A DNA stretch of 64,000 nucleotides, taken from the NCBI RefSeq assembly GCF_017876545.1, contig NZ_JAGIOD010000001.1, positions 3,076,406 to 3,140,405 of the forward strand, given 5' to 3'. This DNA comes from Brachybacterium sacelli. Lineage in GTDB: Bacteria; Actinomycetota; Actinomycetes; Actinomycetales; Dermabacteraceae. Below are positions 4,310 through 46,810 of this stretch, in pieces (within the stretch, counting starts at the first letter, position 1; every line of letters starts with the position of its first letter). The notes under the pieces are model-generated. The model was given only the letters and a program-made list of their open reading frames with translations. It was not told the origin of the DNA and made no database searches. Made by a program: the position numbers and the translations under genes.

Positions 4310-4316
4310 TAGGGGC

Positions 4317-10495: not shown

Positions 10496-10528
10496 CCGCC
10501 CACTTCACGGCATGACCGCGTCACGATC
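10496..10528 (+). promoter_or_regulatory. CGCCCACT leader element of the hexapeptide gene
   Basis: CCGCCCACTTC at 10496-10506 is followed by a weak hairpin (ACGGCATGACCGCGT), about 45 nt before the ATG at 10549. It is one of a set of similar leaders in this window. Function unknown. Confidence 0.5.
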
Positions 10529-10548
10529 GAGATGAAGGGCTGGGCGCC

Positions 10549-11247
10549 ATGGAAATCAGGCGAAAGAAGAGCACGGGCGAGCAGGGCAATCGAGGCGAGT
10601 TCGGGTCAGTTTCCCGGAGCGACGCCGTGGTCGATGTATCCCCGGCCAGCGGGAGCATCGACCGTTCCGCGAAGATCCACGACTCTGCGGCGATTAGCTC
10701 GTCGGCGACGATCCGGAACATGGTGCGGATCCAGGAAGACGTGACGATCGGCGACGGCGTGAAGCTGGGACACCATTCCTTCGTCGGCGCTGCAGCACGA
10801 CTCGACACAGGCGTTCAGGTGGGCTCGAGCGCGAAGGTCGGCGGCGGCTCTCACATCGGCGAAGACGTCCGCATCGGACCGAGCGCCTCGATCTCCACAC
10901 GGGCGCGGATCGGAGCGCGCACGAAGATCTCTGCGGGAGCGAACATCGGCCCTGACACCGAGATCAGGCCCGACGTGTACATCGGTCGGCACACCCACGT
11001 CACCGGCCGCTCCACCATCGGGCAAGGGACTGTCTTGAAGGCCTGGTCCTCGGTCGGTCACGCGACCACTCTCGGCGGCGACGTCGAGCTCGGCGAGGGC
11101 ACGCTGATCGGCTACCGCTGCACCCTCGGCGACAAGGTCCGAGTCGACCCCGGAATCATGGTCCTTCCTGACTCCCGCATCGCCGACGGTGAGCACGTCA
11201 CCATCGACCACCCGCGCGCGGCGCCGAAGCCGACCCCCGAGGACTGA
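10549..11247 (+). CDS. Left-handed beta-helix (hexapeptide-repeat) protein with mobile-element N-terminal motif
   Basis: 232 aa. Residues about 45-215 are a run of hexapeptide repeats (IGDGVKLGHHSFVG, VRIGPSASISTRARIGARTK, IRPDVYIGRHTHVTG) typical of left-handed beta-helix acyltransferases or gamma-carbonic-anhydrase-like folds. No acyltransferase active-site block is recognisable, so it may be structural or binding. The N terminus KKSTGEQGNRGEFGSVSR matches that of the 83-aa protein at 46820 (KRDTGEQGNQGEFASVSR), linking both to the mobile element. ATG 10549 follows AAGGGCTGGGCGCC. A degraded copy of its C-terminal half lies at 12185-12465. Catalytic function not shown. Confidence 0.7.
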   Translation: MEIRRKKSTGEQGNRGEFGSVSRSDAVVDVSPASGSIDRSAKIHDSAAISSSATIRNMVRIQEDVTIGDGVKLGHHSFVGAAARLDTGVQVGSSAKVGGGSHIGEDVRIGPSASISTRARIGARTKISAGANIGPDTEIRPDVYIGRHTHVTGRSTIGQGTVLKAWSSVGHATTLGGDVELGEGTLIGYRCTLGDKVRVDPGIMVLPDSRIADGEHVTIDHPRAAPKPTPED

Positions 11248-11404
11248 CAACACGAACCACTTCGTGCAGACCGACCTCGACCTCCCGGCCGCACCTGCAC
11301 TCCGACCCCGAGCTGCCGAAGGGGCCGAGATCGCCGAGCCGGAGCCGCGAGACCGCTTCCGTTTCGGTGATTTCACTGGCCGTGGACGCTCGGCAGAACG
11401 CATC

Positions 11405-12136
11405 TCACGTGAGCTGCTCGGCCAGCTGGATCAGAGACCGTGCCCGCAGATCCGGGAACTTGAAGTACGCAGGGTAGACGCCGCCGTCCCGGTTGATCCA
11501 GGCGGCGCCGAGACCCGCACGCGCCGCGCCGTCGATGTCCCAGGGATGCACGGCGACGAGCATGGCGTCCATCGGGTCGACCTCGCACCGCTCGAGGGCG
11601 TAGGCGTACGCGCCTGCGCCGGGCTCCCAGATGCTCGCCTGTTCGACGGAGAGGAGCGCCTCGAAGTGGCCGCGGATCCCGGCCCGGTCGAGCAGCGACT
11701 CGGCGACGGATGCAGACCCGTTGCTCAGCGTCACCAACCGGACTCCCAGGCGGCTCAAGGCCTCGATGCCCTCTGGGACGTCTGCATGGACCGGCAGAGC
11801 GGTGAACCCGGCCATGATGTGTTCGACGGCGTCTTCGGTCCCGCGGTTCAGCGGGAGCCCGTGGAGGTTGGCGCGCAGTCCCTCCGCCGCGATGCTGGCA
11901 AAGGGCTCACTGACACCGACAGCGGTCAAGGCGAAGCCGTCGCGGAGAAGTCCCGCGAACCAGGTCTTCGCCAGGTGAGCTGGCGCGCCGACGCCCTGGA
12001 ACCGCTGGCCCATCGACGACATGTCCGAGAGCGTTTCGTTGACGTCGAAGATCAGCAGGGACGGTCGCCGGGGCCCGTCCGGACTCACGGGGTGGTCCGC
12101 ACTCGCGAGAGCGTGGTCGGTGTGTGCGCTCGTCAT
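11405..12136 (-). CDS. HAD-superfamily hydrolase, L-2-haloacid dehalogenase-like
   Basis: 243 aa from the ATG at 12136 (GTG at 12145 is possible). Motif I is LLIFDVNETLSDM with the nucleophilic Asp and Thr; motif II is VTLSNGSAS; motif IV is AVHPWDIDGAARAGL with the acidic residue, all in the order of type II haloacid dehalogenases. Motif III, normally W-K-P, reads SIWEPGAGAY: the conserved Lys is Glu, which may impair catalysis. Soluble and cytosolic; the substrate may be a haloacid or a phosphate ester. It converges on the hexapeptide gene, and nothing ties it functionally to its neighbours. Family confident, activity uncertain because of the Lys replacement. Confidence 0.8.
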   Translation of the reverse strand: MTSAHTDHALASADHPVSPDGPRRPSLLIFDVNETLSDMSSMGQRFQGVGAPAHLAKTWFAGLLRDGFALTAVGVSEPFASIAAEGLRANLHGLPLNRGTEDAVEHIMAGFTALPVHADVPEGIEALSRLGVRLVTLSNGSASVAESLLDRAGIRGHFEALLSVEQASIWEPGAGAYAYALERCEVDPMDAMLVAVHPWDIDGAARAGLGAAWINRDGGVYPAYFKFPDLRARSLIQLAEQLT

Positions 12137-12184
12137 GAGCCTCACCGTAGCCCGGGCCTTCTCTGAGTGCGACGCCTCCCCCGC

Positions 12185-12465
12185 GATGATGCGTACCGGA
12201 GCTCGCGTGGCACTGGCCGAGAAGCCTGTTGTCGGTCAAATCGCGAGCCTCGGTAACGATGTTGCTGGGGGCGAGGGTGCCGTTGTGGGCAGGGGGGTGT
12301 CCGTCAGTGACAGAGTCACTGCCCACATGGTGCTCCACGACGGCAGCGCCATCGGCGGCGCCGTGCGGATCGAACACGACCGTCTCCGTGAGTCCGGCTC
12401 GCACGTCGTCGACCGAGAGAACGTCACCCTCGACCACGCGCCCCGCAGCACCGAAGTCGGCCTCC
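12185..12465 (+). pseudogene. Decayed copy of the hexapeptide gene's 3' half
   Basis: The plus frame reads LGNDVAGGEGAVVGRGVS and later ENVTLDHAPRST, matching LGGDVELGEGTLIGYRCT and EHVTIDHPRAAP of the intact gene at 10549; the nucleotide GTCGGTCA start of the block is also shared. No start codon or upstream half is present and the repeat register is damaged. It occupies most of the stretch 12137-12567, where I see no other gene. Confidence 0.55.
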
Positions 12466-12520
12466 GACGTCTGACTGCACGCCCGCACCAGATCCTGCGG
12501 GTCCCGCGAGGTCGCGTTCC

Positions 12521-12540
12521 CGCCCACTGGCCGGGTCGAC
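12521..12540 (+). promoter_or_regulatory. CGCCCACTGG leader element of the conjugation operon
   Basis: CGCCCACTGG at 12521-12530, followed by CCGGGTCGAC, lies 38 nt before the ATG at 12568, the first gene of the operon. Same box as in other leaders of the element. Confidence 0.5.
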
Positions 12541-12567
12541 AGGAACTCTCTGGCGAAGGTGGGCGAC

Positions 12568-12708
12568 ATGGAGCTGGGACGTGGACCGCGTTACGAGAAG
12601 GACTCCGACGACCTCGCGAACTCCCTCAGCCGCGGCGCAGTTAAGGCCGGGCTGTTCGTGCTGGTCGCGATCTTCATTCTGTCCCTGCTGGTCGGGGTGT
12701 TCTCGTGA
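12568..12708 (+). CDS. 46-aa single-span membrane peptide, first gene of the conjugation operon
   Basis: The ATG at 12568 opens a 46-codon frame: a charged N-terminal half (MELGRGPRYEKDSDDLANSL) and one hydrophobic segment (residues about 27-45, GLFVLVAIFILSLLVGVF) running to the stop. AAGGTGGGCGAC provides a Shine-Dalgarno-like stretch. The stop overlaps the GTG of the NERD gene (GTGA). The layout suggests a small inner-membrane subunit of the transfer apparatus with its N terminus in the cytosol. No family assigned. Confidence 0.65.
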   Translation: MELGRGPRYEKDSDDLANSLSRGAVKAGLFVLVAIFILSLLVGVFS

Positions 12709-13256: not shown

Positions 13257-13265
13257 GGAGGATCC

Positions 13266-16200
13266 ATGGCTCAGAAGTACGACAAGCCCGCCCTGAACCT
13301 CACCATCCCCTTGATGGTGCTGACTCTGCTGCTCGCTGCCGCCGCGGTGCTCGTCGGCCTGCCCGGAGGATGGGTGATGTTCGTCGGGGTGCTGGCCGTG
13401 GCGTGCCTGCATCCGGCGCCGATGCTCACGGGACCGAAGGAGACACCCGCGAATCCGCGGGAAGAGCACCTGGTCCGGCGGCACCGGTCGTGGCTGGATA
13501 CCCGCACGTCCCTGCTGCTCGGGAACGTGTGGGGCTGGGAGACGGTGTGGCCGGGGATCCCGCCGCGTCTCTCGTTCATCGCTTCGGCCACGACCGGCGC
13601 TCTCGTGGCGGCGTTCCCGCTGTCCGGTCAGCTCCCGACCGCGGTGCTCGAGCGCGTCGGGGCACTGTTCGGCACGGATGCGCCAGTCGTGGCGATGCCG
13701 TGGTGGGTGGCAGTGGCGTCGGGGCTGCTGACCCATCACGTGATCACGTCGCTGCTCGCCCGCCGACGCAGAATCCGAGAACAGCCCGTCGTCACCATCG
13801 GCCCCACGGTGCTCCGGCAGCTATGGAGCTCACGGGCGCGTCCGCTTTTGCTCGCCACGCCTATTGCCGCGGTGCTCGGTGGTTGGGCTGCCGTGACCGG
13901 GCTGGAGATGGTGGGGCAGGACTCGCCGATTTGGCAGACGGTCGGGATGGTCGCTGCGGCGGTGCTCGCCGTCGTCGCGATCCTCGGCGGGCCGATCTCG
14001 CGGGTCTGCCTGGAGCGTTGGCGCCGTCTGCAGGCGGCTACGGGGGAGTGGGCGCCGCGGTTCGCCGAGCTGTTCACCGAGAAGGAAGGCCGGCCGCGGC
14101 TCGTGGAACGCACCCTCGCGCCGTGCGCGGCCATCGTCGACGTGATGGACGCTCCGCCGAAGCTCATGGCCGCCGGACTGCAACAGCGCGCCGACGCGAT
14201 CTCGGCGTTCTACGGGGATCCGTCCACGCGGATCGACATCCTGTCCAGCCCGAACCTGGACGCATCGGGACAGCCAATCCCCGGCACCGCGCACCAGCTC
14301 CGGGTACGGGTCGTCCAGTGGCCGGAAGGATCCTTCCCGAACCTGCTCGACCCTGACCTCGACCCTGTTTCCCGCGACCTCGCCCTGGAGTCGGCCCTCG
14401 CCCGGGCGTTCGACGGGATCGGCGTGAACCGCATGTCGCTGATCGAGGCCGTGCAGGTCGCCGACCTGCCCGCGAAGACCGATCCGCACCTGGCCGAGAT
14501 CGCGGAGAAGCGTCACCGTGGCGTTCGCCAGCAGATCGAGAAGCTCGGAGACGAGCACCCCGACGAGGTCGCACGCCTGAAGCAGTCCCTGACCGAACCG
14601 GTCGAACCTCCGACGTCCTCCCGTGCCGCAGCAGCGTGGCGGTGGCTACGTGGTGTGCCGGCCCCGGCACCAATGACCCCGGAGGAATCTCCGCTCGCGA
14701 TCTGGAAGACGACCTGGGCGATGCCCGGCATTCCCACTCCCCCGTGGCACACCATCCAGTCCGAATACGAGACCATCGCCGCAGAGTGCTCCGCCGTGAT
14801 CGAGGACGAACCAGTCGACGTCGATGCCGTGGTCGATCGACGCAGCGGCTACCTCCTCGTCGGCGACCCCCTCGCCGACGGGGCGAGGTACGCAGAGGAC
14901 TCGGGACTCACCGTGGAACAGGTCCGCAACGTGCAGGCAGAGATCGAGTGGGAGAAGCGCTGGGAGCAGACTCTCCCCCAGGGCGCCCAGCCGCCGACGA
15001 CCCGATTCGAGATCACGCGAGACGCCGAACTCCCCCAGCGCTTCACTCGCGAAGGTCTCGTGCTGCATGAGCAGCTGTTCGCCACCAAGACCGGCCTCGA
15101 TGCGGGCGAGACGTACATCGACCCGCGCGGCAAGGACTTCGAGAAGGGGATGCGCACCTCGATCACCGGGGCGCAAATGGTCTCGATCGTCGGCTGGCCC
15201 AGCGAGAAAGAAGGCCCAGGCTCCCGCCACCCACACCTGTTCCTGGTCCGCTGGACCACCGACCCAGTACCGACCACCCCACAAGACGTCGCACCACCCG
15301 AGCAGACGACCCCCGTGGCCACCAGCGGCTCCGCATGGATCCTCGCGCACCTGATCAACAGCGCCTTCCAAGCCGCCGCCGTAAAGCTGCCCAAACCCGA
15401 GCTCGTCGAGACCGAGCCACTCACCCTGCCGGCCAGTTCGAAGCACGCCTGGAAGGTGACGCTCCGCCTGCACGGCGGGACGACGCTGGTCGATGTGCGC
15501 AAGAAGGCCGACGCTCTCCGTTCCCAGCTCGCCTGCCCGTGGATGCGCCTGTCCAGTCCATGCGACGGTGAAGTCACCCTGTATATCGGGGACCCGGGGC
15601 CGGGGGCGAAGCTGCGTCGCGGCGCCGAGGTCGAGGTGCGGCGGGTCGACTTCGACCAGGCGTTCGTCGACTCGAACATCACGAACCTCTCCGGCACCGT
15701 CCCGACCCTGACGAAGCTCGAGACACTCGCGTCGAACGACCAGGTGGAGGTGCTGGACTTCGACCTGCCCGCCGGCGTGGATATCAACAAGGTCAAGGGC
15801 AACCGGGAGAAGCTGCGCTCGAACCTGAACGTGGAGTTCCTCGACGTGCGCCGCCACGGAGCCTCCGGGATCCAGTTGTTCATGGCAGAGCACGACCCCC
15901 TGCCCGAACGCGTCGGGATCCCTTTCGACCGGCTCGGCGACACCCCGGCTGCCTTCGGCGTCACGGCGCTCGGTGAGCCGACCATCTACGACCCGCTCGA
16001 GAACCCCCACCTCCTCGTACTGGGAGGAACCGGCGCCGGCAAGTCGGCGGCGATCAGCACCATGCTGTTCGACCTGATTCGCTGCGGCTACCTCCCCGTG
16101 ATCATCGATCCGACCAAGGGCGGGTACGACTTCCTGTTCTCCAAGGACTGGGCGATCGCCCCATTCGCCGCAGACGTCTTCCAGGCCGCCTCGACCATGA

Positions 16201-17333
16201 AGGCCCTCTACGGAGAGCTCGAGCGGCGCAAAGCCCTGAACGGACAGTACGGCGCGGTGAACATCGACAAGCTGCCTGACGATGCGCGCCCGCCGCATCT
16301 GATCGTGGTGGTCGATGAGTTCACGTCCCTGATCGGGAAGTCCTCGGTGCCTCCGAAATCTGATGATCCGGCGGCCGATCATGCCCGGCTCGAGGCCGAG
16401 GCCGAGAACAATGCCCGGGCGATCATCGGGAACATTGTCGGCAAACTCGGACGAGAAGCACGCTCCGTCGGGATCCACCTGCTGCTGGGCACCCAGAAGC
16501 TGACGTCGAAGACCCTCGACACCATGCCGGGCGGGGCAGACATAAAAACCAATCTGGCCCGGATGGGGCTGGGGAACATGACCCAGGGTGACCGGATGAG
16601 CGCGTTCCGGAACCCCATGGAAGCCGACACCATCGCTGCACCGCGTGTGGGTCGTGGCCTGTTTGAGCCGCTGACTGCCCCGCACCCGTGCCTCATGCAG
16701 GTCTGGTACGAGGAAAACGCCACCCTCCAGGCGAAGCTGCAAGAGCACGACATCCCGCAGCCCCGCCCCGAGCAGTTACTGGACCCGTCGGATCCGCGCT
16801 ACGTGGTCGCGCCGCTGGAGGACTTCGTCGACGTGGTCGAAGAGAAGATCACGGAGCAGGAAGCGCTGGCGGTGGAGGAGCTCGATCTGAATATCAGCTT
16901 CGACCTCGGCTCCCTGCTCGGAGACACCACTCACGATCCCGAAGGCGAGGCATCCTCTGCTGAGCGGAGCGTAGCTCTGTCCGAGCTCGAGGCCAACAGC
17001 CTCTTCGAAATTCTCGAAGCCCTGCAAGACGCGACCGAGCGAGAGAAGGTCACGGAGATCGTCGTCGACGTCGAGGGTCTGGACGCAGAGTCGGAGGTCG
17101 GCGCGACCTACCGGGAGCTGATCACCGAGCTCGCCGTCGACGTTGGCGCTGAGCTATGTGCGACCGCCACCCCCGGCACCGATACCCCAGCCGAAGACTT
17201 GCCCGAGGTCGCGCCGGCCCCGGCCGACTCCCCCGCTGCGCCACCAGCACCGGAGACCAAAGAGTCGCTCGATGAGGACGACGGCTTCGACTTCACCTTC
17301 GAGGCCCCTCCGATGGTCCGCGGCGGACTCTGA
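13266..17333 (+). CDS. Large membrane FtsK/SpoIIIE-type ATPase of the conjugation operon
   Basis: 1355 aa. Membrane segments fall at about residues 13-50, 98-118, 140-165, 190-212 and 220-243. A long middle region follows, then a motor domain with Walker A VLGGTGAGKSAAIS (about 918-931) and Walker B LIVVVDEFTSLI (about 1013). KTNLARMGLGNMTQGDRMS lies near the sensor region. The tail (about 1200-1355) is acidic and Pro/Ala-rich, ending near DDGFDF. It probably drives DNA or substrate transport for the element, as FtsK-like ATPases do in actinobacterial conjugation; with five membrane segments and this size it could instead fill a VirB4-like role. GAGGAGG precedes the ATG. It lies downstream of the NERD gene and upstream of the wall hydrolase. 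Confidence 0.8.
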   Translation: MAQKYDKPALNLTIPLMVLTLLLAAAAVLVGLPGGWVMFVGVLAVACLHPAPMLTGPKETPANPREEHLVRRHRSWLDTRTSLLLGNVWGWETVWPGIPPRLSFIASATTGALVAAFPLSGQLPTAVLERVGALFGTDAPVVAMPWWVAVASGLLTHHVITSLLARRRRIREQPVVTIGPTVLRQLWSSRARPLLLATPIAAVLGGWAAVTGLEMVGQDSPIWQTVGMVAAAVLAVVAILGGPISRVCLERWRRLQAATGEWAPRFAELFTEKEGRPRLVERTLAPCAAIVDVMDAPPKLMAAGLQQRADAISAFYGDPSTRIDILSSPNLDASGQPIPGTAHQLRVRVVQWPEGSFPNLLDPDLDPVSRDLALESALARAFDGIGVNRMSLIEAVQVADLPAKTDPHLAEIAEKRHRGVRQQIEKLGDEHPDEVARLKQSLTEPVEPPTSSRAAAAWRWLRGVPAPAPMTPEESPLAIWKTTWAMPGIPTPPWHTIQSEYETIAAECSAVIEDEPVDVDAVVDRRSGYLLVGDPLADGARYAEDSGLTVEQVRNVQAEIEWEKRWEQTLPQGAQPPTTRFEITRDAELPQRFTREGLVLHEQLFATKTGLDAGETYIDPRGKDFEKGMRTSITGAQMVSIVGWPSEKEGPGSRHPHLFLVRWTTDPVPTTPQDVAPPEQTTPVATSGSAWILAHLINSAFQAAAVKLPKPELVETEPLTLPASSKHAWKVTLRLHGGTTLVDVRKKADALRSQLACPWMRLSSPCDGEVTLYIGDPGPGAKLRRGAEVEVRRVDFDQAFVDSNITNLSGTVPTLTKLETLASNDQVEVLDFDLPAGVDINKVKGNREKLRSNLNVEFLDVRRHGASGIQLFMAEHDPLPERVGIPFDRLGDTPAAFGVTALGEPTIYDPLENPHLLVLGGTGAGKSAAISTMLFDLIRCGYLPVIIDPTKGGYDFLFSKDWAIAPFAADVFQAASTMKALYGELERRKALNGQYGAVNIDKLPDDARPPHLIVVVDEFTSLIGKSSVPPKSDDPAADHARLEAEAENNARAIIGNIVGKLGREARSVGIHLLLGTQKLTSKTLDTMPGGADIKTNLARMGLGNMTQGDRMSAFRNPMEADTIAAPRVGRGLFEPLTAPHPCLMQVWYEENATLQAKLQEHDIPQPRPEQLLDPSDPRYVVAPLEDFVDVVEEKITEQEALAVEELDLNISFDLGSLLGDTTHDPEGEASSAERSVALSELEANSLFEILEALQDATEREKVTEIVVDVEGLDAESEVGATYRELITELAVDVGAELCATATPGTDTPAEDLPEVAPAPADSPAAPPAPETKESLDEDDGFDFTFEAPPMVRGGL

Positions 17334-17353
17334 CCGCGCCCGCTTCGACCTCC

Positions 17354-17363
17354 CGCCCACTGG
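17354..17363 (+). promoter_or_regulatory. CGCCCACTGG leader element of the wall-hydrolase gene
   Basis: CGCCCACTGG, then GCGCAGCCGAGGAGGT with the ribosome site, lies 21 nt before ATG 17384. It sits inside the operon, only 20 nt after the FtsK stop, so it may act on translation or as an internal promoter. Confidence 0.5.
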
Positions 17364-17383: not shown

Positions 17384-19192
17384 ATGGCGGATCACGCCGA
17401 CACCCACGGTCCCAACACCGGGGACACTCCCCTGCCCGAAGACACCTCGCTGGACGCACCGGGAAGCGGTGACCTCGGATCCGGCACCGACGGCGGTGCG
17501 GCCGCGACAGCCACCTCGGCGGGCAAGGCGCTCGCTCAGCGTGGCGTCGAGGCGGGGGTGAAGAAGGCGACCGGGTCCGACGTTGCCGTCAGCGCCCTGC
17601 GGGGAGCGCAGAAGGCCCGTAGTGGCGACATGATCGGCGGTGCCCAAGACGTCGCTGCCTCCGGAGCCGGAGCACTCACCACCGCAGCCATCGCAGGCAC
17701 CGGAGCCGGAGCGCCCGTCGCGGGACTCGCCGGATCGGCCGTCACCACCATCTTCCAGACCAAGGCCTTCCGCTACCTCTTCGCCGGCATCGCAGCGCTC
17801 GTCGTCGTCACCTTGGTGCTGCAGACCGTGCTCATCTCCGGGGTCACTGCCGCGATCGTCAGCGCCGTCCTACCTTCCGTCAGCCAAGCAGCCATGCAGT
17901 CCGACACCTGCAACGACACGGGCAATCACGGTGGAGCGATCCCGGGTGACGTGGCCGGTGGGGACATCGAGGAGAAGGTGTGGAACTACCTCCGCGGCGC
18001 CGGGTACAGCGAAGAGCAGACCGCCGGGGTCATGGGGAACATCGAACGCGAGAGCAGCTTCAACCCGTTCATCGCCCAAGGCGAAGCGAGCACCCCGTCG
18101 ATCGGTTCCGGCTGGGGACTTGTGCAGTGGACTGGCAGCCGCCACGCCGAGATCCGCGACGCCGTGATCGACGAGCTCGGCACCGAGTACTACATCGCCG
18201 CACCCACCATGCAGCAGTTGCCCGCCACGATGTCCGAGGAGGACGTCGATGCGATGGTGCTGTTCCAACTGCGGTACATCATTGGAGAGCTCGAGGGCGT
18301 CGAGAAAGCGGCAGGTGACCATCTCGCCTCGACATTCACGGTCGAGGAGGCCACGCGATCGTTCGAAGCGAAGTACGAACGCTCCGGTGTCATGGCGATC
18401 GACGAACGCATCGCCAACGCCCAGACGTTCTACGACCAGTACTCCGGCACGGCTGCGCCTGACCCCGGCGGCACTGCGCACGTTCCGGCCTCAGACGAGT
18501 CCGCTGGCACCGTTCCAGCCGATGTCGCGGACGCCTCGAGGTCCGACTGCACCGGCTCGTCGATCACCCCGGGATCCGAGACCGGCTCCGTCACTCCATG
18601 CCCCAGCGGCACCCCCGGCTGCGTGAACATCGCCGCCCTGATCCAGCCATCCGCTTCTCTGTCCTGTCCGGACGGGACCGCAGACAACGGCACCACCACC
18701 GCCTACTACCAGGGGCAGGGCAAGCCGATCCGGCTGTGCGCCCTCGACGACGTCACCGACCTCAACGGCCGCCCGATCGTCATGAACGCGACCATCGCGC
18801 CTGAGTTCGTAGAGTTCTGGACCGATGCAGAAGCACAGGGGCTCGAGCTGACGATCACCTCCTCCTACCGGTCCCACGCCACGCAGCAGTCTCTGTACGC
18901 GAACTCTCCCGGCGGCGCTGCCCGCCCCGGATGGTCGAACCACGAGTTCGGGATGGCCTTCGACATCGGCAACTTCCCCGCCTCCTACTCGCGGCACAAC
19001 TGCGGACCCACCCAGACCCCCGAGGCTGCCTGCTCCTACCCAGGCACCGGCGCCGACCTGGAGCGATGGAAGAAACTCCGCGAGCTCGGCCTGAAGCACG
19101 GCATGTACATCCACGACGAAGAGTTCTGGCACATCGAGTTCATTCCCTCCGGGCTGCACCGCGACCGCAATATCGACGTCTACGAAGGATGA
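17384..19192 (+). CDS. Conjugation wall hydrolase: phage-tail lysozyme domain plus M15 (VanY-like) peptidase
   Basis: 602 aa. A Gly/Ala-rich N terminus leads to a membrane segment (about 128-165), so the rest faces outward. Residues about 188-330 match the phage-tail lysozyme family: EEKVWNYLRGAGYSEEQTAG, GNIERESSFNPF with the catalytic Glu, and GWGLVQWTG. After a linker with Ser/Thr and paired Cys, residues about 470-595 form an M15B D-Ala-D-Ala peptidase: SYRSHATQQ, SNHEFGMAFDIG (HxxxxxxD zinc site) and EFWHIEF. Such two-domain hydrolases open peptidoglycan for the transfer channel (VirB1-like). GAGGAGGT precedes the ATG. The stop overlaps the next gene's ATG (ATGA). Confidence 0.88.
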   Translation: MADHADTHGPNTGDTPLPEDTSLDAPGSGDLGSGTDGGAAATATSAGKALAQRGVEAGVKKATGSDVAVSALRGAQKARSGDMIGGAQDVAASGAGALTTAAIAGTGAGAPVAGLAGSAVTTIFQTKAFRYLFAGIAALVVVTLVLQTVLISGVTAAIVSAVLPSVSQAAMQSDTCNDTGNHGGAIPGDVAGGDIEEKVWNYLRGAGYSEEQTAGVMGNIERESSFNPFIAQGEASTPSIGSGWGLVQWTGSRHAEIRDAVIDELGTEYYIAAPTMQQLPATMSEEDVDAMVLFQLRYIIGELEGVEKAAGDHLASTFTVEEATRSFEAKYERSGVMAIDERIANAQTFYDQYSGTAAPDPGGTAHVPASDESAGTVPADVADASRSDCTGSSITPGSETGSVTPCPSGTPGCVNIAALIQPSASLSCPDGTADNGTTTAYYQGQGKPIRLCALDDVTDLNGRPIVMNATIAPEFVEFWTDAEAQGLELTITSSYRSHATQQSLYANSPGGAARPGWSNHEFGMAFDIGNFPASYSRHNCGPTQTPEAACSYPGTGADLERWKKLRELGLKHGMYIHDEEFWHIEFIPSGLHRDRNIDVYEG

Positions 19193-24725: not shown

Positions 24726-25190
24726 TCAGAAGTCGAAGTCGTCGTCCGAGCCTGCGTCGTCGGCGCCGGCCTTGACGGAGGCGCTGGCCTTCGCCTTTGG
24801 CTTCGAGGAGGAGCGGTTGCCGTTGCCCTTGCGGCGGGTGGCCGTGGTCGTGGCGAACTTGTTCGAGGGCCCGGCCTCCTCGACGATCAGCTCGAGGGTC
24901 GAGCGCTCGTTGCCCTCCTTGTCGGTGAAGTCGTTCTGCTTGAGCTTGCCGACGAGGATCACGCGATCGCCCTTCGAGTGGGACTCGGCGAAATTCTCGC
25001 CGGACTCACGCCAGTAGGAAGCCCGCACGAACGTCGGCTCCCCATCCACCCACTCCTCGGACTCTCTGTCGAAGATCCGGTCGTTGTGCGCGACGGAGAA
25101 CGAGGCGACCGGGATGTTCTTCTTGGTGTGGCGCAGCTCGGGGTCGGCCGTCAGCTGACCGACGACCGTGACGATGTTGTCCAGAGCCAT
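24726..25190 (-). CDS. ssb: Single-stranded DNA-binding protein
   Basis: 154 aa from ATG 25190, chosen because the OB fold starts there (ALDNIVTVVGQLTADPELRH) and GAGGAGAG lies upstream. Residues 1-110 form the SSB fold (VASFSVAHNDR, VRASYWRESGENFAE, GDRVILVGKLKQ). The linker is Lys/Ser-rich and the tail ends in DDAGSDDDFDF, an acidic tip like the protein-docking tip of SSB although it lacks the usual Pro-Phe ending. It should coat single-stranded element DNA during transfer or replication. Downstream of the element-borne polymerase gene; a CGCCCACTGG box lies 97 nt upstream. Confidence 0.93.
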   Translation of the reverse strand: MALDNIVTVVGQLTADPELRHTKKNIPVASFSVAHNDRIFDRESEEWVDGEPTFVRASYWRESGENFAESHSKGDRVILVGKLKQNDFTDKEGNERSTLELIVEEAGPSNKFATTTATRRKGNGNRSSSKPKAKASASVKAGADDAGSDDDFDF

Positions 25191-25286: not shown

Positions 25287-25296
25287 CCAGTGGGCG
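25287..25296 (-). promoter_or_regulatory. CGCCCACTGG leader element of ssb
   Basis: On the minus strand CGCCCACTGG is followed by TGCGGTGTGCGGGATCGTCC, where GCGGGATCGTCCCGC forms a hairpin, about 97 nt before the ssb ATG. Same box and orientation relative to the gene as the other leaders. Confidence 0.55.
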
Positions 25297-25334
25297 AAGC
25301 CAACACCTCACAGGACGTGCCAGGGCGACGCCCT

Positions 25335-28300
25335 TCAGCCGGAGCGTGCAGCAACAGACGGGCTCAATCCGTCGACCGAGACCGTTGCCGGGTCGATCGC
25401 GCCAGAGTTGATCGCATCGGACATCGCCCGCAGCTGGCCGCGCCAATGCCCGGGCTCGATCACGACGCAGCACAGCGCCGGCGTCGACACGAGGGCCGGA
25501 AGTCTGCCCGCAGCAAGGAGCTCAGTCAGCCGGCGCTGCGCGGTCGCAGGGACGCGCACGGACCCGTTCTCAGTCTCAAGCCGCAGATGCACCCCGGTGC
25601 CTCGCCCTGCGCGGGGCGTGGCGAGCTCGAACCCTTCCCCACTGACCTCACTCAGCGCCTCCTGCAGCTGCCGCCACTCAACGGTCCTGACGATGTCCTG
25701 GATCCCGAAGTCCTTCTCAGCATCTCCGGGCTCCGAAACCTGCGGAGCTGGCCCATGCTCCGGGGCCTCCAGCGGGGTCTCCCCCGGCGTGGACGGGTCG
25801 GACTCGGACGCGACCTCGGAGACCGCCAGGCGGTCCACGCCCGGGATGACCTCCCCGTCGTCGTCACTCGAGATGCCCGGGTCCGAGCTCGAGTCCGACC
25901 TACGCGGCTCCGGGGTGCCGTCAGCCAGCATCCACCCCACGGCCAGGACCGGGTCGCCCTCAGCGTCACGATCAGGGTCCTCCACCGCCATGAACTCGAC
26001 GTTCGACAACACGATCGAATGCTCGAGCGTGGTCTCCGTGCTGGACTCCCCCGTCACCTCGTCTGTGACTTCCCGCTCGACCTCCCGGATGCGAACCGTG
26101 CCGCGGATCTCAACCAGATCCCCGAGCTCCGGCATCCCGATCTCCTTCAGGTCGGAGTGGACGTCCGCGAATCCGACTGTCTGGATCGAGGTGTGTGCGT
26201 TCTCCAACTCCATCGTCACCATCCACGTGCCCTTGCGGGTCAGCCGCTCCGTGAACGCAGAGACGACTCCGCCGGTGCGGACCCTGGCACCGTCCGTGCC
26301 GGGCAGCTTGTGCAGCCCCACGGGTGGCTTAGGCGCTGCGTCGTCGCCCGCATCGACCCGGTACAGGTCGGCGATCTGGCGAGCGAGGGCCTTCGTGGGA
26401 TGGGTGCCGGTGATCGCGAGGATGCTGGCCCGCTGCCGTGACGCCTTCTCCAGCACCGAGTACTCCATCTGCGGGAGGCGAACGCCGGGATCCTTCGCGA
26501 CGGCGCGGGAAGCGATCACGTGCCCCAGGCGGTATCCATGGCCGACGTGGTCGAACGCGCCGGCCTGAGCGAGAGCCGTCAGCTGGGCGCTGGTGACGGA
26601 CTTCTTCTTCCCGCCGTCGTCGCTGGCGGGCACGATCACGCGGGTGGCGACCTCAGCCATCGAGGCGAACTTCCCGCCCCGGTCACGTTCGGCGACGATC
26701 TCGGCTGCGATCGCTCCGACGCCCTTGATCTCGCCCAGTCCGAGCCAGACTGCACCGTCGCGCGCGATGGTGTGCTCGTCGGAAGTGTTGATGTCGGGGG
26801 CCTGGACGGTGACGCCCTCGGCGCGCAGCGAGCGGATCGTCGCAACGCGCAGGTGGGCCTTGTCCTTGCCGGAACCGGTGAACCGCAACACGGCAGCCCC
26901 GAACTCGGCCGGCCAGTTCGCCTTCAGGTACGCGGTCTGGAAGGCCAGGGCCCCGTAGGCCGCAGTGTGCGAGCGGTTGAACGAGTAGCGTCCCGAGCCC
27001 TCGAACGCGGTCCACAACCGTTCCGCGGTCTGCGCGGAGATCCCCGGGACAGGGGACTGTCCGTCCTCGGCAACGCCCGTTCGCTGAGCGCCGGCAATGA
27101 AGTCGGGTTTGAGGGAGTCGATCAGGTCTTGCTTCTTTTTCGAGATCGCACGGCGGAGGTTGTTCGCCCTTGCCGCGTCGAACTTCCCGACGATCTTCCC
27201 CAGGCGCATCATCTGCTCCTGGAACAGGATCACGCCCTGAGACTGCCCCAATACGGACGCAATCACGTCCTGCTCGGCGGGATCGGTGGTCAGGGAGTCG
27301 TAGGAGACGGGTGCCTTGCCACCTGTGCGCTCTGCCCATTCGGTGTGCATGCCGGCGCTCATCGGACCCGGCCGGTAGGCAGCGATCAGCGCCGCGAGGT
27401 CATCGAGCGTGTGAGGGAGCGCGGTAGTCAGCAGATCGCGCATCCCGGCGGATTCGAGCTGGAAGACGCCGGTGGAGTCGCCGCGGCCCAGCAGCTCCCA
27501 GGCCGCCTCGCCGCGCGGGCCGTCGGTGCGCAGCTCGAGCAGGTCGAAGTCGATCTCGCCCTGGGTGGCGATGACGTTCTGTTCGGTGGCCTTCACGATG
27601 TCGAGGTTCCGCAGTCCGAGGACATCCATCTTCAGCAGCCCGAAGTCGGCGATGTCCCCGCCGTCCCATTCGGTGACCCACTCCCCCTCGACCAGACGCA
27701 TCGGCACCAGCGGGGTGAGGTTCTCGTCAGAGACGACGACCCCGCAGGGATGCGTGCCGGGGCTAACGACGACTCCTTCGAGGACGGCGGCGTACTCCAT
27801 CATCGTGGCCACGCCGTAGCGGGCCCGGCGCCGCGTCCCCGGGCTGGGTAGGTCATCGCCGTCCTGGGCCGCGAGGTGGTCGCGAAGGGTCTGGCCGGCC
27901 TCGTAGCGGTCCCGCAATGCGGCGGCTTCTTTCGCGCTCATGCCGGTGGTGTCCGGTGGTTCCGCACGTAGGAGCATCGCCAGGCCCGCGCAGTCGGTAG
28001 GGAGCTGCTTCTTGACGTCGGCGACGGTGCTGACGGGGATCTCGAGGTAGCGGCCGGCGGAGTCGATGGCGCGCTTGGCCTTGTTGGTGCCGTGCATGCC
28101 GAGGCGGCACACGTTGTCGTGGCCGTAGCGGACGGATAGGTAGTCGATCACCTCACCGCGACGTTCCTTCTCGAAGTCGACGTCGATGTCGGGCATCTCG
28201 GTCCGCTCGAGATCCAGGAACCGCTCGAACAGCAGTCCGCCTTCGATCGGGTCGATTCCGACGATCTGCAGGCTGTACGAGACTGCCGAGCCGGGTGCTG

Positions 28301-29648: not shown

Positions 29649-29807
29649 CGAGATCCCTTTCGACGCCATTCCCGTGCAAGTGCGCAGTGGGCGCGGCGGC
29701 CCCCTCGCGGGACGAGCCCGGCAAGTCGCTCGTTCGCAGTTTCGGCGCCGTCGCACTCCCCCGGTCCGGAACCGATAGAGAATTCCCTTATAAGGTCATA
29801 CCGGGGA

Positions 29808-40681: not shown

Positions 40682-40698
40682 GCACACCCACCTTTCGT

Positions 40699-40761: not shown

Positions 40762-40791
40762 TCCCACGTCGAGCACCAAGGAGTCCCTCTG

Positions 40792-41442: not shown

Positions 41443-41482
41443 CCCTCACGACATCCCCGGCACGCACGCCAGGAAGGCGCCC

Positions 41483-42391: not shown

Positions 42392-42552
42392 TGGACGGTC
42401 TTGTGCTTGCAGTACATCTATTCAGGCACTCTGGCCACTATGCCTGCCTTTGACCAGGCTCAGTAGGCGGTGCCGAGGTCTCCCTCGATTCACTATGCGA
42501 TTCCCGTCTCGCTGAAGTGCACCGCGGTGCTTGCTTTGTCGAGCACGTAGGC

Positions 42553-42782: not shown

Positions 42783-42812
42783 ATCGGGATCGGAGCGGGA
42801 ACCTGGATCTGC

Positions 42813-42844
42813 CGCCCACTGGTGCGGGGTGACTATCCCGCACC
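42813..42844 (+). promoter_or_regulatory. CGCCCACTGG leader element with 8-bp hairpin
   Basis: CGCCCACTGG (42813-42822) runs into the hairpin GGTGCGGG, loop GTGACTAT, CCCGCACC (42821-42844), 21 nt before GTG 42866; GAGGAAG lies between. This is the clearest member of the repeated leader family in this window. Confidence 0.6.
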
Positions 42845-42865
42845 CAAGGAACTGAGGAAGCACCC

Positions 42866-43366
42866 GTGAGCACCTCCAGCACCCACACCTCCAGCGTTCC
42901 CGAGGAAGGCGCCGGCAGGTTCTGCCTCCGCATCGGGGAACGCACCGTACGGGCGGACCGCAACGACGAGCTGCTCGCCGCGGTCATCGGCCCCGAGTAC
43001 CTCGAGGAGTCCGATCCCGAGGTGCTGTTCCTGATGCGTCTCGAGCAGGCGATCGTGATCGCGACCGCGGTGCAGGAGTCGATCGTGGCCGCCGCCGTGC
43101 AACGCCGCGACCTGGACGAGACCACCGACGAGGAAGTGTGGACCGCGCTGCTGGCGGAGCGGGAGACCGTCGACCCCGGGGTGCGGTGGGAACACCAGAT
43201 CCCGCTCGTGCTCGTGTCGAGCCTGTTCGCTCCGTACACGGACCGGGACCAGCCGATCGGGAACATCGCCTGGGTCGACCCCACCGACGACGTCACCATG
43301 CTGGAGACGCTGCAGGGCCTGGGGGTCATTGAGCTGCTCGAGCACGGCGACCTGGCGGTTGCCTGA
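42866..43366 (+). CDS. Unknown 166-aa acidic protein preceding the RbpA homologue
   Basis: GTG start at 42866 with GAGGAAG 5 nt upstream, directly after a hairpin leader. Acidic and soluble; helix-rich middle (LMRLEQAIVIATAVQESIVA) and the end segment VTMLETLQGLGVIELLEHGD. No family recognised, no membrane segment, no Cys pairs. Its stop shares one base with the next ATG (TGATG), so it is translationally coupled to the RbpA-like protein and may be its partner. In the parent element it may have followed an FtsK-type gene, since a decayed FtsK tail lies just upstream. Confidence 0.65.
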   Translation: MSTSSTHTSSVPEEGAGRFCLRIGERTVRADRNDELLAAVIGPEYLEESDPEVLFLMRLEQAIVIATAVQESIVAAAVQRRDLDETTDEEVWTALLAERETVDPGVRWEHQIPLVLVSSLFAPYTDRDQPIGNIAWVDPTDDVTMLETLQGLGVIELLEHGDLAVA

Positions 43367-43752: not shown

Positions 43753-43870
43753 CCAAGTCTTCGGTCCCTCCCGAGCGCTTGGAGGGCCGGTTCCTGCATT
43801 TGCCTTCTCCCATCGCAGCTTCCTTGTGATCGTCGGCTCGGGTGTCCGGGGTACGTCGTAGGTTCGAGTC

Positions 43871-44275
43871 ATGACTACTTGTGGGGCGTGCAATCAGACG
43901 GTCGACCTCAAGAGCGGGCCTCATGTGCACGATTCGAAGATCTGCCGCGCCTGCCAGCGGTCTCTGCCCGCAGCGTCGTTCGCTCCTCATGCAAGCTCCG
44001 GCGATGGGCGCCGACACCAGTGCCGGGAGTGCGTCGCTGCGGAACGACCCGCGCCGTTGAGCGCCGGGCAGCGAGAAGTGCGACGGATAAGGGAGGGTGC
44101 AGCGGTGAAGGCGGATCGGAACCAGCGTTTGCGGGACAGCGGCTATCGATGGGTGATCCAAGCCCCGGACGGCCGGATCTTGTCCATCCAGCAGGCCGAG
44201 AATGAGCTTGACGCAATCGACGCCGAGGACAGCCGGTCGTACTGGGACGAGCTGCCTCCAGGCTCAGACCTCTGA
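43871..44275 (+). CDS. Unknown small zinc-binding protein
   Basis: 134 aa. Two zinc-like knuckles: TCGACNQTVD (C-x2-C) with HVHDSKICRACQRSLP (C-x2-C), and RRHQCRECVAAER (C-x2-C); the fourth pair completes a treble-clef-like or HNH-associated arrangement without an obvious nuclease His-Asn-His. A basic linker (REVRRIREGAAVKADRNQRL) follows, then YRWVIQAPDGRILSIQQAEN and SRSYWDELPPGSDL. The last 45 codons are duplicated at 45222-45350. Possibly a DNA-binding accessory factor. The start ATG 43871 has GTCGTAGG upstream. Confidence 0.6.
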   Translation: MTTCGACNQTVDLKSGPHVHDSKICRACQRSLPAASFAPHASSGDGRRHQCRECVAAERPAPLSAGQREVRRIREGAAVKADRNQRLRDSGYRWVIQAPDGRILSIQQAENELDAIDAEDSRSYWDELPPGSDL

Positions 44276-44300
44276 TCCTCCGTCCCGCGGCGGCGACTAT

Positions 44301-44325
44301 TCGCCCACTTCTCCGGGGACATGCA
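44301..44325 (+). promoter_or_regulatory. CGCCCACT leader element (repeat copy 1)
   Basis: TCGCCCACTTCTCCGGGGAC at 44301-44320, matching the leader in front of the 45417 gene. Here the next gene is 80 nt away and unrelated, so the element was separated from its original gene by the insertion. Confidence 0.5.
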
Positions 44326-44402
44326 CCGTCGTTCGACAATGCGTCCCTGCTTCCCTGTCGCTTGAACGCCCAGTTGAGGCTACGTGATGAGAGAATCGTG
44401 TC

Positions 44403-45173
44403 ATGACTAGCGAGTCCTCGACGGCACTCTCACGGACCCCTGCATTCGAGTGGGGAAACCACGTCGGCCCGGTCATTGGTGTGGCCGCCTCAGCGCTCAT
44501 CTGCCTTAAGCTTTTAGCAGTCGCCGGCTGGGACAGCAACACCGCGTTCGGAATCCTCGCAGCAAACGGGACAGCTAATGTCCTGACAGGTGCACTCCTG
44601 GCCGTTCTGCCAACCCTTTACGGAGCATTCGCATTCGCGATAATTCCTCGAATTGAACGTGACCTCAGGCTTCGTACGCCGGTTGAGAGAGCCGCTGCAC
44701 GACTCTTGGCGACATGGCCCACGATCCTACTGGTATTTATTGTCCCGCTTGGGATATTGATATTCTTTGCAGTGTTCATATTGCTGGCGACCGCACTGTC
44801 GATCTATCGATCGATCAAGGATATTCGGATGCGCGCTAGCCGCGAGAACGTCCCCGTACCGACCTCAGAGCCGCCAAGCAGGTTTGAAGCGACGAGCGCC
44901 GGCCTTGCCGGGCTTGCGATCCTAATGTTCAGCTCTCTGCCGATTCCTTGGATACCGCCGGAAACCGTCGTTACACCAAATGGAGAGCAGACCGCGTACG
45001 TCCTGAGCCGTGACGAAGAAGATGCAACAGTGCTCTTTCAGGAACACCGGAGCCTGGCCCGCATAAAAAGTGATGAACTATCGGGTTCGTACTGCCGGTT
45101 AGACTTGGGATGGTGGAGCGAGCCTCTTCCGCGTCTTTTCGCGGATGTCAAGTACCCATCATGCCCAAGCTGA
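44403..45173 (+). CDS. Unknown four-span membrane protein, lower GC than its surroundings
   Basis: 256 aa with four hydrophobic segments: about 18-40 (VGPVIGVAASALICLKLLAV), 55-80 (TGALLAVLPTLYGAFAFAII), 103-128 (ILLVFIVPLGILIFFAVFIL) and 165-185 (GLAGLAILMFSSLPIPWIPP). The tail after the last span carries VTPNGEQTAYVLSRDEEDAT and lies outside or inside depending on topology. No family recognised. Codon use includes TTA, ATA and AAT far more than neighbours, and the gene sits exactly between the two 180-bp direct repeats, so it looks like a late insertion. Possibly an immunity or abortive-infection type membrane protein; not supported by motif. Confidence 0.7.
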   Translation: MTSESSTALSRTPAFEWGNHVGPVIGVAASALICLKLLAVAGWDSNTAFGILAANGTANVLTGALLAVLPTLYGAFAFAIIPRIERDLRLRTPVERAAARLLATWPTILLVFIVPLGILIFFAVFILLATALSIYRSIKDIRMRASRENVPVPTSEPPSRFEATSAGLAGLAILMFSSLPIPWIPPETVVTPNGEQTAYVLSRDEEDATVLFQEHRSLARIKSDELSGSYCRLDLGWWSEPLPRLFADVKYPSCPS

Positions 45174-45374
45174 GCGATCCTATTAACTCGCTAACCTGCG
45201 CGAGAGGACGAGCGGACCCTCGTGGTTGATCCAGGCGCCGGATGGCCGGATGTTGTCCATCCAGCAGGCCGAGGAAGAGCTTGACGCAATCGACGCCGCG
45301 GACAGCCGGTCGTACTGGGACGAGCTGCCACCGGGCTCTGACCTCTGACCCTCCGTCCCGCGGAACCTCGCCTT

Positions 45375-45400
45375 CGCCCACTGGTGCGGGGACATGCCCC
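45375..45400 (+). promoter_or_regulatory. CGCCCACTGG leader element with GGGG/CCCC hairpin
   Basis: CGCCCACTGG (45375-45384), then TGCGGGGACATGCCCCAC, a hairpin with GGGG/CCCC stem, then GTGGAGGAGGATCC with the ribosome site and ATG 45417. Confidence 0.58.
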
Positions 45401-45416
45401 ACGTGGAGGAGGATCC

Positions 45417-45926
45417 ATGGCCTCGCTGATCGAGTCCGTCCGCAAGCTGCACGGCCCGACACTCGTCGAGCACGACAACGGCTACGACGTCGACGTCATC
45501 TGTCCCGAATGCACCCGCCTGCGCACCGAAGCCCTCGAGAAGGCGAGTGCCGACGGCGAAGACTGGGTCTACACGGCGGAACTCGCGCATGTGCCATATC
45601 CCTGCGCCACGCGGGTCGTCGCCGGCACCACCGAGGCCGAGGGCAAAGACGAGTCCGCACGCTTGCGCCTGGAGCACCTGGTGGTGCAGCGGGAGGAGCT
45701 CGAGGAGCGCATGGAGCGGCTCGATGCCGTCATCGGCCTGATCCGTCGCGATCTCGGCGAGGACGCCGACGAGTCCCCCGAGCCCGACCAGAGACCCGTC
45801 GACAAGCCCGCCAACCCGTCGAGCGCGCTTGTGAAGAGCCCCGAGGTGAACACGGTCACCGATGACGAGGCCAGCACAACTGCACCTGGCTCGGCGCCGG
45901 AAGAGCGCGACGACTACGACTTCTGA
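45417..45926 (+). CDS. Unknown coiled-coil protein with SSB-like acidic tip
   Basis: 169 aa from ATG 45417 (GGAGGAGG upstream). The first half has VICPECTRL and PCATRV, a possible single zinc pair. The middle is a coiled coil (LRLEHLVVQREELEERMERL, about residues 82-112). The Pro/Ser-rich tail ends EERDDYDF, very like the SSB end SDDDFDF here, so it might dock to the same partners. It follows a hairpin leader. No family recognised; role in the mobile element inferred from context. Confidence 0.6.
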   Translation: MASLIESVRKLHGPTLVEHDNGYDVDVICPECTRLRTEALEKASADGEDWVYTAELAHVPYPCATRVVAGTTEAEGKDESARLRLEHLVVQREELEERMERLDAVIGLIRRDLGEDADESPEPDQRPVDKPANPSSALVKSPEVNTVTDDEASTTAPGSAPEERDDYDF

Positions 45927-46006
45927 GCATCGTTCGATCACGCGAGCGTTCGTCCTGACCTGAACGATCGAGCCCGCGCGGTAACTGACGATCTACCCTC
46001 GTCAGC

Positions 46007-46744
46007 ATGACCGACAACACTGGGCAGCGCGACGCTGCGGACCGCTTCATCAACGCGACGGAGCAAGCCAAGAAGGCCCTCGAGGGGAAGTACCAGAGGA
46101 AGTTCTCCGGGCTCGGTGCCGCGGTGAGGCATGCGGAGGAGCAGCGCGACCATGTCGTGCGACAGAATGCAGCCGCCCTCCATGTGCTTGTCGACCTACG
46201 CAACGTCATTCAGCACAGTCGCGTGAACAAGGGGCTGCCTATCGCTATCCCGAGAGATGACGCCGTCGAGGCGATGGAGCGGATCGGGGCCCACATCGAA
46301 CACCATCCGCTGATCAAGGACTTCATGGTCAAAAACCCGGCAGTGCTCGCTCCGAACAGTGCGATCGAAGAGGCCTCCGAGCACGTCGTACGACTCGACC
46401 TGTCGCAGTTGCCGGTCTATCACGAGGGCTCATACGTCGGGTTGTTCACGACGAATGCCATGGCCAGGTGGCTCGGCAACGCGGTCCGCAGCGAAAACGG
46501 GACCCTAATCATCGAGAACGTGAAGGTCGCGGAGATCCTGGAGCATGTTGAGCAACACGAGATGCCGAAGTTCGTGGGTCCGAATAAGTCGGCTCTGAAG
46601 GTGTGCGAGACGCTCTCAAAGGAGACCGCTCCCCCAGCAATCCTCGTGACGACCGATGGGACAGCCGCCGGGCAACTGCAGGGGATCGTGACCCGCTTCG
46701 ACGTGGCCCGCATCCTGCGCGAAGCGACCGTGAGCTACCCCTGA
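46007..46744 (+). CDS. HEPN-like domain fused to a CBS-domain pair
   Basis: 245 aa. The N-terminal helical part (about 1-80) contains VLVDLRNVIQHSR with Arg65 and His70, the R-N-x3-H motif of HEPN domains. From about residue 85 the protein carries two CBS motifs: VVRLDLSQLPVYHEGSYVGL with FTTNAMARWL, and PAILVTTDG with LQGIVTRFDVARIL. CBS pairs bind adenine nucleotides and act as sensors. HEPN domains often cut RNA or bind a partner. The combination suggests a nucleotide-gated RNase or defence protein, but catalysis is unproven. ATG 46007; single gene between accessory genes of the element. Confidence 0.7.
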   Translation: MTDNTGQRDAADRFINATEQAKKALEGKYQRKFSGLGAAVRHAEEQRDHVVRQNAAALHVLVDLRNVIQHSRVNKGLPIAIPRDDAVEAMERIGAHIEHHPLIKDFMVKNPAVLAPNSAIEEASEHVVRLDLSQLPVYHEGSYVGLFTTNAMARWLGNAVRSENGTLIIENVKVAEILEHVEQHEMPKFVGPNKSALKVCETLSKETAPPAILVTTDGTAAGQLQGIVTRFDVARILREATVSYP

Positions 46745-46778
46745 CCGACGCCCTCGTCGTCCCGCGACGCAGAGCCCT

Positions 46779-46810
46779 CGCCCACTTCCTCGACAGCGAC
46801 GGCATCGAGG
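46779..46810 (+). promoter_or_regulatory. CGCCCACTTCC leader element with CCTCG/CGAGG hairpin
   Basis: CGCCCACTTCC (46779-46789) overlaps the stem CCTCG (46788-46792), pairing with CGAGG (46806-46810), just before GGGAG and ATG 46820. Confidence 0.55.

Follow-up and report, generated by a model that had tools for sequence, protein, structure and literature searches.

What is the short word CGCCCACT that recurs ahead of genes in this 64-kb stretch of Brachybacterium sacelli DNA (the window, meaning the whole 64,000 nucleotides analysed)? An earlier note had listed ten copies, described them as a motif followed by a short hairpin, and offered a promoter, an attenuator or an RNA switch as possible functions. 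We find that the word is one half of a two-box sequence confined to related mobile elements. In all likelihood the sites form a private sigma/promoter system, in which CGCCCACT would be a -10-like element read by RNA polymerase carrying a diverged sigma factor encoded by the element itself. A large mobile DNA element thus seems to carry its own sigma-like gene together with matching promoters, and could turn on dozens of its genes independently of the host; related plasmids in other bacteria seem to have versions of their own.

The window contains 13 copies of CGCCCACT against 3.84 expected, and none of 100 dinucleotide shuffles reaches 13. All ten copies noted earlier were recovered, the one before ssb lying at 25289-25296 on the minus strand, and three more were found, all on the minus strand (29686-29693, 14047-14054 and 47157-47164). 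The copies had been described as gene-oriented and just upstream of a start codon. This holds for nine of the 13, at 17-99 nucleotides (nt), counting the site at 44302 by way of an open reading frame (ORF), 44403-45173, that the gene caller did not choose; it fails for the remainder. Likewise, the GG or TC said to follow the word is present in the ten listed copies and absent from all three additional ones. What the earlier description overlooked is a second box, GTCCCGCG or GTCCTGTG, placed 12 bases upstream of CGCCCACT at 6 of the 13 sites.

The two-box consensus is GTCC[C/T]GC[G/C]-N12-CGCCCACT, with CGCCCACT as the -10-like half. Across the 4.87-Mb genome, GTCCCGCG-N12-CGCCCACT occurs in 16 exact copies and 0 reversed ones, all within three clusters designated E1 (the cluster of the window), E2 and E3. 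The abbreviated form GTCC-N16-CGCCCACT is found at 51 sites, and 50 of these fall inside the elements as we delimited them. E1 and E2 have many genes in common, mostly at 50-83% protein identity. In the final 12 kb of contig C1 (window about 52200-64000), 13 genes are 99-100% identical to the inverted end of contig C2; this repeat indicates that the contigs overlap there, and E1 and E3 are probably one region. E3 was cut at 1716800 on account of the overlap. A related genome, G023, has E1-like and E3-like genes together in one stretch of about 190 kb.

Only 6 of the 82 CGCCCACT copies in the elements of this genome fall within predicted genes (5 if 15 nt at gene ends are spared), although about 82% of the DNA is coding. 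A same-strand start lies within 60 nt of 56 of the 82 and an opposite-strand start of none; the corresponding numbers in relatives are 49 and 2 of 78 in G013, and 53 and 0 of 96 in G023, G037 and G009 together (gene calls come from a simple caller of our own, and start positions may be off).

Pooling seven element regions gave 256 sites, which are partly orthologous between related elements and hence not independent. We assigned 122 to class A, with at least three of four matches to GTCC, and 56 to class B, without that box; the 78 sites that lie in genes or at least 150 nt from a start were left unclassed. C directly precedes CGCCCACT at 54 of 56 class B sites versus 60 of 122 class A sites, a difference that holds in three genome groups separately (p=2e-5, 0.02 and 3e-5). 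The extension of extended -10 promoters is reported to bypass the -35 element (PMC7403470), and a preceding C without the GTCC box matches that logic. Class A sites would carry a -35-like box, GTCC[C/T]GC[G/C], 20 bases upstream of CGCCCACT, while class B sites, with the box absent and a C nearly always before the word, would resemble an extended -10.

The distance from CGCCCACT to the start codon shows two peaks, one at 9-10 nt and the other at 30-50 nt. At 25 of the 178 classed sites (23 of them class A) the gene starts only 7-11 nt after the final T of the word, a gap too short to hold a leader. In class B 17 of 56 sites, and in class A 7 of 122, have a GTG that begins 8 nt after this T. 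If transcription starts 7-11 nt after the T, the GTCC box would lie near -36 and the end of CGCCCACT near -8. We propose that the transcription start lies about 8-10 nt beyond the final T, which would make some mRNAs leaderless.

The candidate reader of these sites is a protein predicted to adopt a sigma-like fold that includes regions 2, 3 and 4. Sigma70 region profiles (Pfam, NCBIfam) gave no match in 8 of 8 Brachybacterium members, and among distant relatives 6 of 7 match Sigma70_r3, all below cut-off. Because profiles miss the protein, we call it sigma-like; its place in the sigma-70 family rests on predicted fold and context. Elements mostly have two sigma-like paralogs, which may divide class A and class B sites between them. 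G009, G030 and G036 have one sigma match each, and G009 has both class B sites and GTCC-bearing sites. The E2 copy is split by an insertion sequence, and E2 promoters may depend on the copies of E1 and E3.

Presence of the sigma-like gene, found in 8 of 38 genomes of the genus, goes with the two-box motif. GTCC-N16-CGCCCACT counts are 1, 5, 7, 9, 20, 22, 41 and 51 in the genomes with the gene and 0-5 in the 30 without it (Mann-Whitney p=6e-5); in G033, the genome with one site, the gene is in two pieces. Three observations weigh against this co-occurrence: the G009 region has no excess of CGCCCACT (14 vs 16 reversed), the excess in the G023 region is modest (40 vs 29 reversed), and G025 has 5 sites but no sigma-like gene.

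Named homologs of the sigma-like protein, the element RbpA and its neighbour OrfU (both described below) are mostly from Brachybacterium. Relatives of the sigma-like protein were absent from viral_contigs. A pattern search of genome_contigs matched 34 stretches, of which 3 were confirmed as sigma-like relatives, all Brachybacterium, and profile A5 matched in 5 of 394 genomes of the class including this one (6 candidates scored per genome). The distant relative P0217, which gave none in phage records at E 1e-3, matches eight plasmids of 375-608 kb at 29-32% identity (three Curtobacterium, two Arthrobacter, two Pseudarthrobacter, one Paenarthrobacter), where the gene is annotated as a hypothetical or HTH protein. 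Its neighbourhood there resembles that in E3 and G023: an AAA/ParA-type gene, a gene of about 300-360 amino acids (aa), in most a gene of about 130-150 aa and the sigma-like gene, with a gene of about 1000 aa and a PD-(D/E)XK-type nuclease gene downstream. The arrangement is only partly kept in Curtobacterium, and the E3 nuclease was assigned by eye. In the Curtobacterium plasmid D40, a gene for a WhiB-family regulator (L105 6177-6554) separates the AAA ATPase gene from the sigma-like gene cluster.

To see what precedes genes on these plasmids, enriched words in upstream regions were counted blind, without using the known motif, in 400 kb each of pACHL01 and pPA-B-2242 and in 400 of 607 kb of a Curtobacterium plasmid. 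The procedure recovers CGCCCACT in 57 of 210 regions of our own elements (0.5 expected) and in 52 of 122 in G013. On the plasmids it returns other words. CCGCACAC stands in 102 of 329 regions of pACHL01 and 93 of 313 of pPA-B-2242 (1.4 expected), and the full Pseudarthrobacter form, GGGGAG-N14-CCGCACACAT-N7-ATG, has two boxes, similar geometry and leaderless starts. In pACHL01 there are 174 copies of CCGCACAC, 124 before genes and 31 in genes (reversed, 8), and in pPA-B-2242 there are 152, 105 and 23 (reversed, 14). The commonest distance to the start in pACHL01 is 10 nt (39 of 124), with the qualification that the ATG inside CCGCACACATG is sometimes called as the start (18 of 124). The Curtobacterium plasmid gave CCGCGCATAG, with CGCGCATA in 45 of 324 regions (0.5 expected); CCGCGCATA has 59 copies there, 48 before genes and 7 in genes (reversed, 2), and no clear -35-like box was seen at these sites in the part covered. 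Over whole plasmids, exact CCGCACACAT numbers 139, 97, 133, 127 and 138 in the five from the Arthrobacter group and 19, 17 and 18 in the three from Curtobacterium, with 0-1 reversed. It is absent (0 and 0) from two plasmids lacking the sigma-like gene, pACHL02, whose strain also carries pACHL01, and plasmid 1 of Arthrobacter FB24, in which the blind search found no comparable word (best 7/102 and 8/100). Three groups of genera show an association of the sigma-like gene with a two-box motif. The word differs between lineages and is missing from the two sigma-less plasmids, so a different sigma-like protein goes with a different -10-like word.

We think it reasonably probable, though less so than the basic system, that a sigma-70 branch invisible to profiles gives actinobacterial megaplasmids and integrated elements, over a broad range of them, a transcription channel of their own. 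It would use GC-rich codes particular to each lineage (CCGCCCACT, CCGCACACAT and CCGCGCATAG) at dozens to more than 100 promoters per element. In Brachybacterium a captured RbpA, retuned to the sigma-like protein, would help melt a -10 beyond the reach of ordinary polymerase, and the genes of the element would be insulated from host transcription until a repressor is lifted.

Could the 28-bp site instead be an operator, bound by an element-encoded transcription factor (the sigma-like or another HTH protein) at promoters served by a host sigma? In favour of this, the motif varies so little that it looks more like an operator than like an ordinary promoter; no profile calls the protein sigma, some relatives match HTH_5, and the elements hold further HTH genes. 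We nevertheless regard this as unlikely. Where the start codon follows 7-11 nt after the word, or 10 nt, the commonest distance in pACHL01, there is no space for a separate -10. Box spacing and the trade-off between -35 and extended -10 are promoter logic, and the predicted fold includes sigma region 2, beyond an HTH alone. One HTH protein (L010:13440-14081) was tried as the factor and set aside: it is not core, has a counterpart only in E2 among the elements compared, and is missing from the list of genes common to at least three elements. A host-encoded alternative sigma as reader would fit with the seven Sigma70_r2 matches in the genome, none of which lies within the elements as delimited, but the sites themselves lie almost entirely inside the elements and are few in the genomes without the sigma-like gene. 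It seems implausible to us that a host factor would govern almost no host gene, and we consider this explanation very improbable.

The remaining alternative is that motif and hairpin make up an RNA leader element, be it an attenuator, a riboswitch or a start-associated signal. The site does stand in many leaders and a few hairpins are strong, as at 42813 (z -4.19), but these are single sites and not a property of the class. We folded the 36 nt after the motif at 150 sites lying 12-149 nt before a start in the seven regions, using 150 motif-free leaders from the same elements as controls; mean z was -0.42 versus -0.24 (Mann-Whitney, p=0.12 for z and 0.21 for energy). Rfam had no match at gathering score in the window. 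By these two results the hairpin or RNA switch reading was rejected, and the claim that a short hairpin follows with its pairing kept is, as judged by folding strength, not confirmed. Genes that begin right after the motif and an upstream box at fixed spacing also speak against an RNA leader, which strikes us as scarcely credible. Among the functions offered by the earlier note, attenuator and RNA switch are thus unsupported. Promoter is well supported, by the two-box -35/-10 geometry, the strict orientation, the fixed short distance to leaderless starts, the restriction to elements and the change of motif alongside the sigma-like protein.

If the private sigma/promoter system exists, how might it be controlled? 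In E1 the sigma-like gene points away from a neighbouring XRE-type gene, which is followed by an esterase gene and then by the gene of an HExxH ImmA-like protein. Both domain matches are below cut-off (HTH_3, 19.7 bits against 23; Peptidase_M78, 19.2 bits against 22). The same XRE/ImmA-like arrangement, divergent from the sigma-like gene, occurs in E1, E2, G023 and G037. Between the XRE and sigma-like genes lie words like GCATCTATAGATGC, three in E1 and two each in E2, G023 and G037, counted with up to 3 mismatches to a word read by eye from E1 and with no chance expectation behind the counts. No CGCCCACT was found between the XRE/ImmA-like pair and the E1 sigma-like gene. We envisage a switch of XRE-type repressor and ImmA-like anti-repressor, with the palindromes between, that controls the sigma-like gene; from this gene order and the palindromes, the regulon probably stays silent for as long as the repressor is in place. 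In the ImmR/ImmA switch of ICEBs1-type elements, an XRE repressor and an M78 metalloprotease adjoin the activation gene. The E1 locus would be similar in having a putative XRE repressor gene and an ImmA-like HExxH gene by a putative activation gene, and operator-like palindromes. It differs in that the target would be a sigma gene, the domain matches are sub-cut-off and an esterase gene lies in between.

The window also encodes a paralog of RbpA, which scores 46.6 bits in a genome-wide Pfam search. It exists beside the chromosomal copy, is 31-33% identical to two chromosomal RbpAs and has a changed N-terminal tail, but its C-terminal sigma-interacting segment, HW..L.ERR..-ELE.LL..RL.LLR, is retained. 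Three positions ahead of the conserved W, 12 of 13 element RbpAs have K (the other has a gap) and both chromosomal proteins have R; we tentatively take this position to be that of the basic-linker arginine R79 of M. smegmatis, which contacts DNA upstream of the -10. The element RbpA may help the polymerase with the sigma-like protein to open its GC-rich -10. RbpA of actinobacteria is an RNA polymerase-binding protein, PF13397 (PMC5302886, PMC7403470), reported to bind group 1 and 2 sigmas and not group 3 and 4 (PMC7403470). Since RbpA is reported for groups 1 and 2 only, a partnership with the sigma-like protein is a guess. Compared with that RbpA, the window protein is likewise above the PF13397 cut-off with the sigma-interacting segment kept, but it is a mobile-element paralog with an altered tail.

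Element RbpA is found in 5 of the 38 genus genomes, all among the 8 with the sigma-like gene. None was found in phages or plasmids at E 1e-5 (at E 10, six plasmid records gave partial, chance-level matches only), nor on the portions covered of two Pseudarthrobacter plasmids and one Curtobacterium plasmid. OrfU always adjoins it in the elements compared, and is preceded by a class B site in all five relatives compared, as in the window; its relatives on the three megaplasmids covered (35-36% identity) occur without RbpA. Nothing supports OrfU as a DNA-binding factor, and its structural model is poor (pLDDT 48.5).

Short conserved sequences ahead of many genes are familiar from the start-associated sequences of actinophages. 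Those resemble CGCCCACT in preceding many genes of one mobile element; by their description they differ, the word here lying upstream of the putative transcription start, with an upstream box at fixed spacing. There is precedent for a plasmid-encoded sigma factor that serves genes of the same plasmid. SigN (ZpdN) of Bacillus subtilis, whose gene lies on plasmid pBS32, controls a regulon located there and has a promoter consensus of its own; it is expressed from a repressor-controlled LexA promoter and a SigN-dependent promoter (PMC6751061). Both systems have a sigma or sigma-like gene on the plasmid or element and promoters on the same element; in the present one, repressor-type control is proposed and recognition of the promoters is inferred. 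The present system departs from SigN in having an adjacent XRE/ImmA-like pair instead of LexA, no CGCCCACT ahead of its sigma-like gene, a protein that profiles miss, mostly two paralogs, an RbpA paralog and a -10-like word that varies by lineage. What sets it apart, in sum, is how far the protein has diverged in sequence, a -10 that is GC-rich and hardly varies, codes that are specific to a lineage, the promoter number, the paralog pair and the RbpA paralog. Our literature search, with most subscription papers outside its reach, found no description of the sigma-like protein or the motif among the records listed.

If the proposed system is real, it would account for the control of many uncharacterised genes on large actinobacterial plasmids and integrated elements, with as many as about 140 promoters on one plasmid. 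Replicons on which the sigma genes now carry hypothetical or HTH annotation would gain start sites, operons and a regulatory switch, and sigma/promoter pairs separate from those of the host would become available. Melting of a GC-rich -10, the evolution of sigma specificity and the role of the RbpA paralog would become testable.

The putative regulon would include ssb, dnaE, a conjugation-type ATPase, a lysozyme, an excisionase-like gene (66 aa, with a class A site upstream) and tagged proteins (Table 1). For dnaE, translation more likely begins at a GTG near 29648, judged by eye from the E2 ortholog. The lysozyme-like gene 17384-19192 has orthologs in E2, G023, G013 and G037 that are likewise preceded by a class B site.

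Table 1. Positions of the elements, sites and genes discussed; plain coordinates are window positions, and those with C1 or C2 are contig positions.
Feature	Position	Strand	Context
Element E1 (cluster of the window)	C1:3054-3123 kb
Element E2	C2:911-999 kb
Element E3	C2:1656-1709 kb
Sigma-like gene, E1	C1:3059628-3060611	-	16 kb left of window
Second sigma-like paralog	C2:1652361-1653245
Sigma-like gene copy, E2	C2:992507-994703		split by insertion sequence
Class A candidate promoter, GTCCCGCG-N12-CGCCCACT	12501..12528	+	40 nt upstream of gene 12568-12708; FtsK-like ATPase gene 13266-17333 farther downstream
Class A candidate promoter, GTCCTGTG-N12-CGCCCACT	25289..25316	-	99 nt upstream of ssb (24726-25190)
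Class A candidate promoter, GTCCCGCG-N12-CGCCCACT	29686..29713	-	upstream of dnaE (25335-29669 as called)
Class A candidate promoter	44282..44309	+	94 nt upstream of ORF 44403-45173 (not gene-caller supported; no Pfam match)
Class A candidate promoter	45355..45382	+	35 nt upstream of gene 45417-45926
Class A candidate promoter	46759..46786	+	34 nt upstream of gene 46820-47071 (short protein, shared TGEQGN tag)
Class B -10-like site	10497..10504	+	45 nt upstream of gene 10549-11247; no GTCC box; C directly before
Class B -10-like site	17354..17361	+	23 nt upstream of gene 17384-19192 (phage-lysozyme-like and VanY-like domains)
Class B -10-like site	42813..42820	+	46 nt upstream of OrfU, first of the OrfU-RbpA pair
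CGCCCACT, not classed	2830..2837	+	conserved non-coding block; E2 counterpart C2:969127
CGCCCACT, not classed	3116..3123	+	conserved non-coding block; E2 counterpart C2:968891
CGCCCACT	14047-14054	-	antisense within gene 13266-17333; not in the earlier list
CGCCCACT	47157-47164	-	no same-strand start within 6 kb; not in the earlier list
OrfU, 166 aa, no family	42866..43366	+	conserved partner gene; distant relatives on three megaplasmids
RbpA paralog, RNA polymerase-binding protein, 124 aa	43378..43752	+	Pfam RbpA 47.7 bits, cut-off 25
Tagged proteins, window and E1	10549-11247, 46820-47071; C1:3064493, 3067821
Tagged proteins, E2	C2:926295, 962494, 963347, 982412, 985377, 986606
Tagged proteins, E3	C2:1679357, 1684876, 1696731, 1697767, 1704842

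An N-terminal tag like RKRDTGEQGNxGEFAxxxRxEA is common to many otherwise different element proteins, and is perhaps a sorting or translocation signal. At window 44200-45420, the surroundings of the sites at 44282 and 45355, together with the C-terminal coding part that precedes them, resemble a partial duplication. The non-coding block at window 2489-4316 is conserved at 74-90% DNA identity over parts in E2, G013, G023 and G037; its two CGCCCACT copies have the same orientation, and it is a candidate oriT, replication origin or non-coding RNA.

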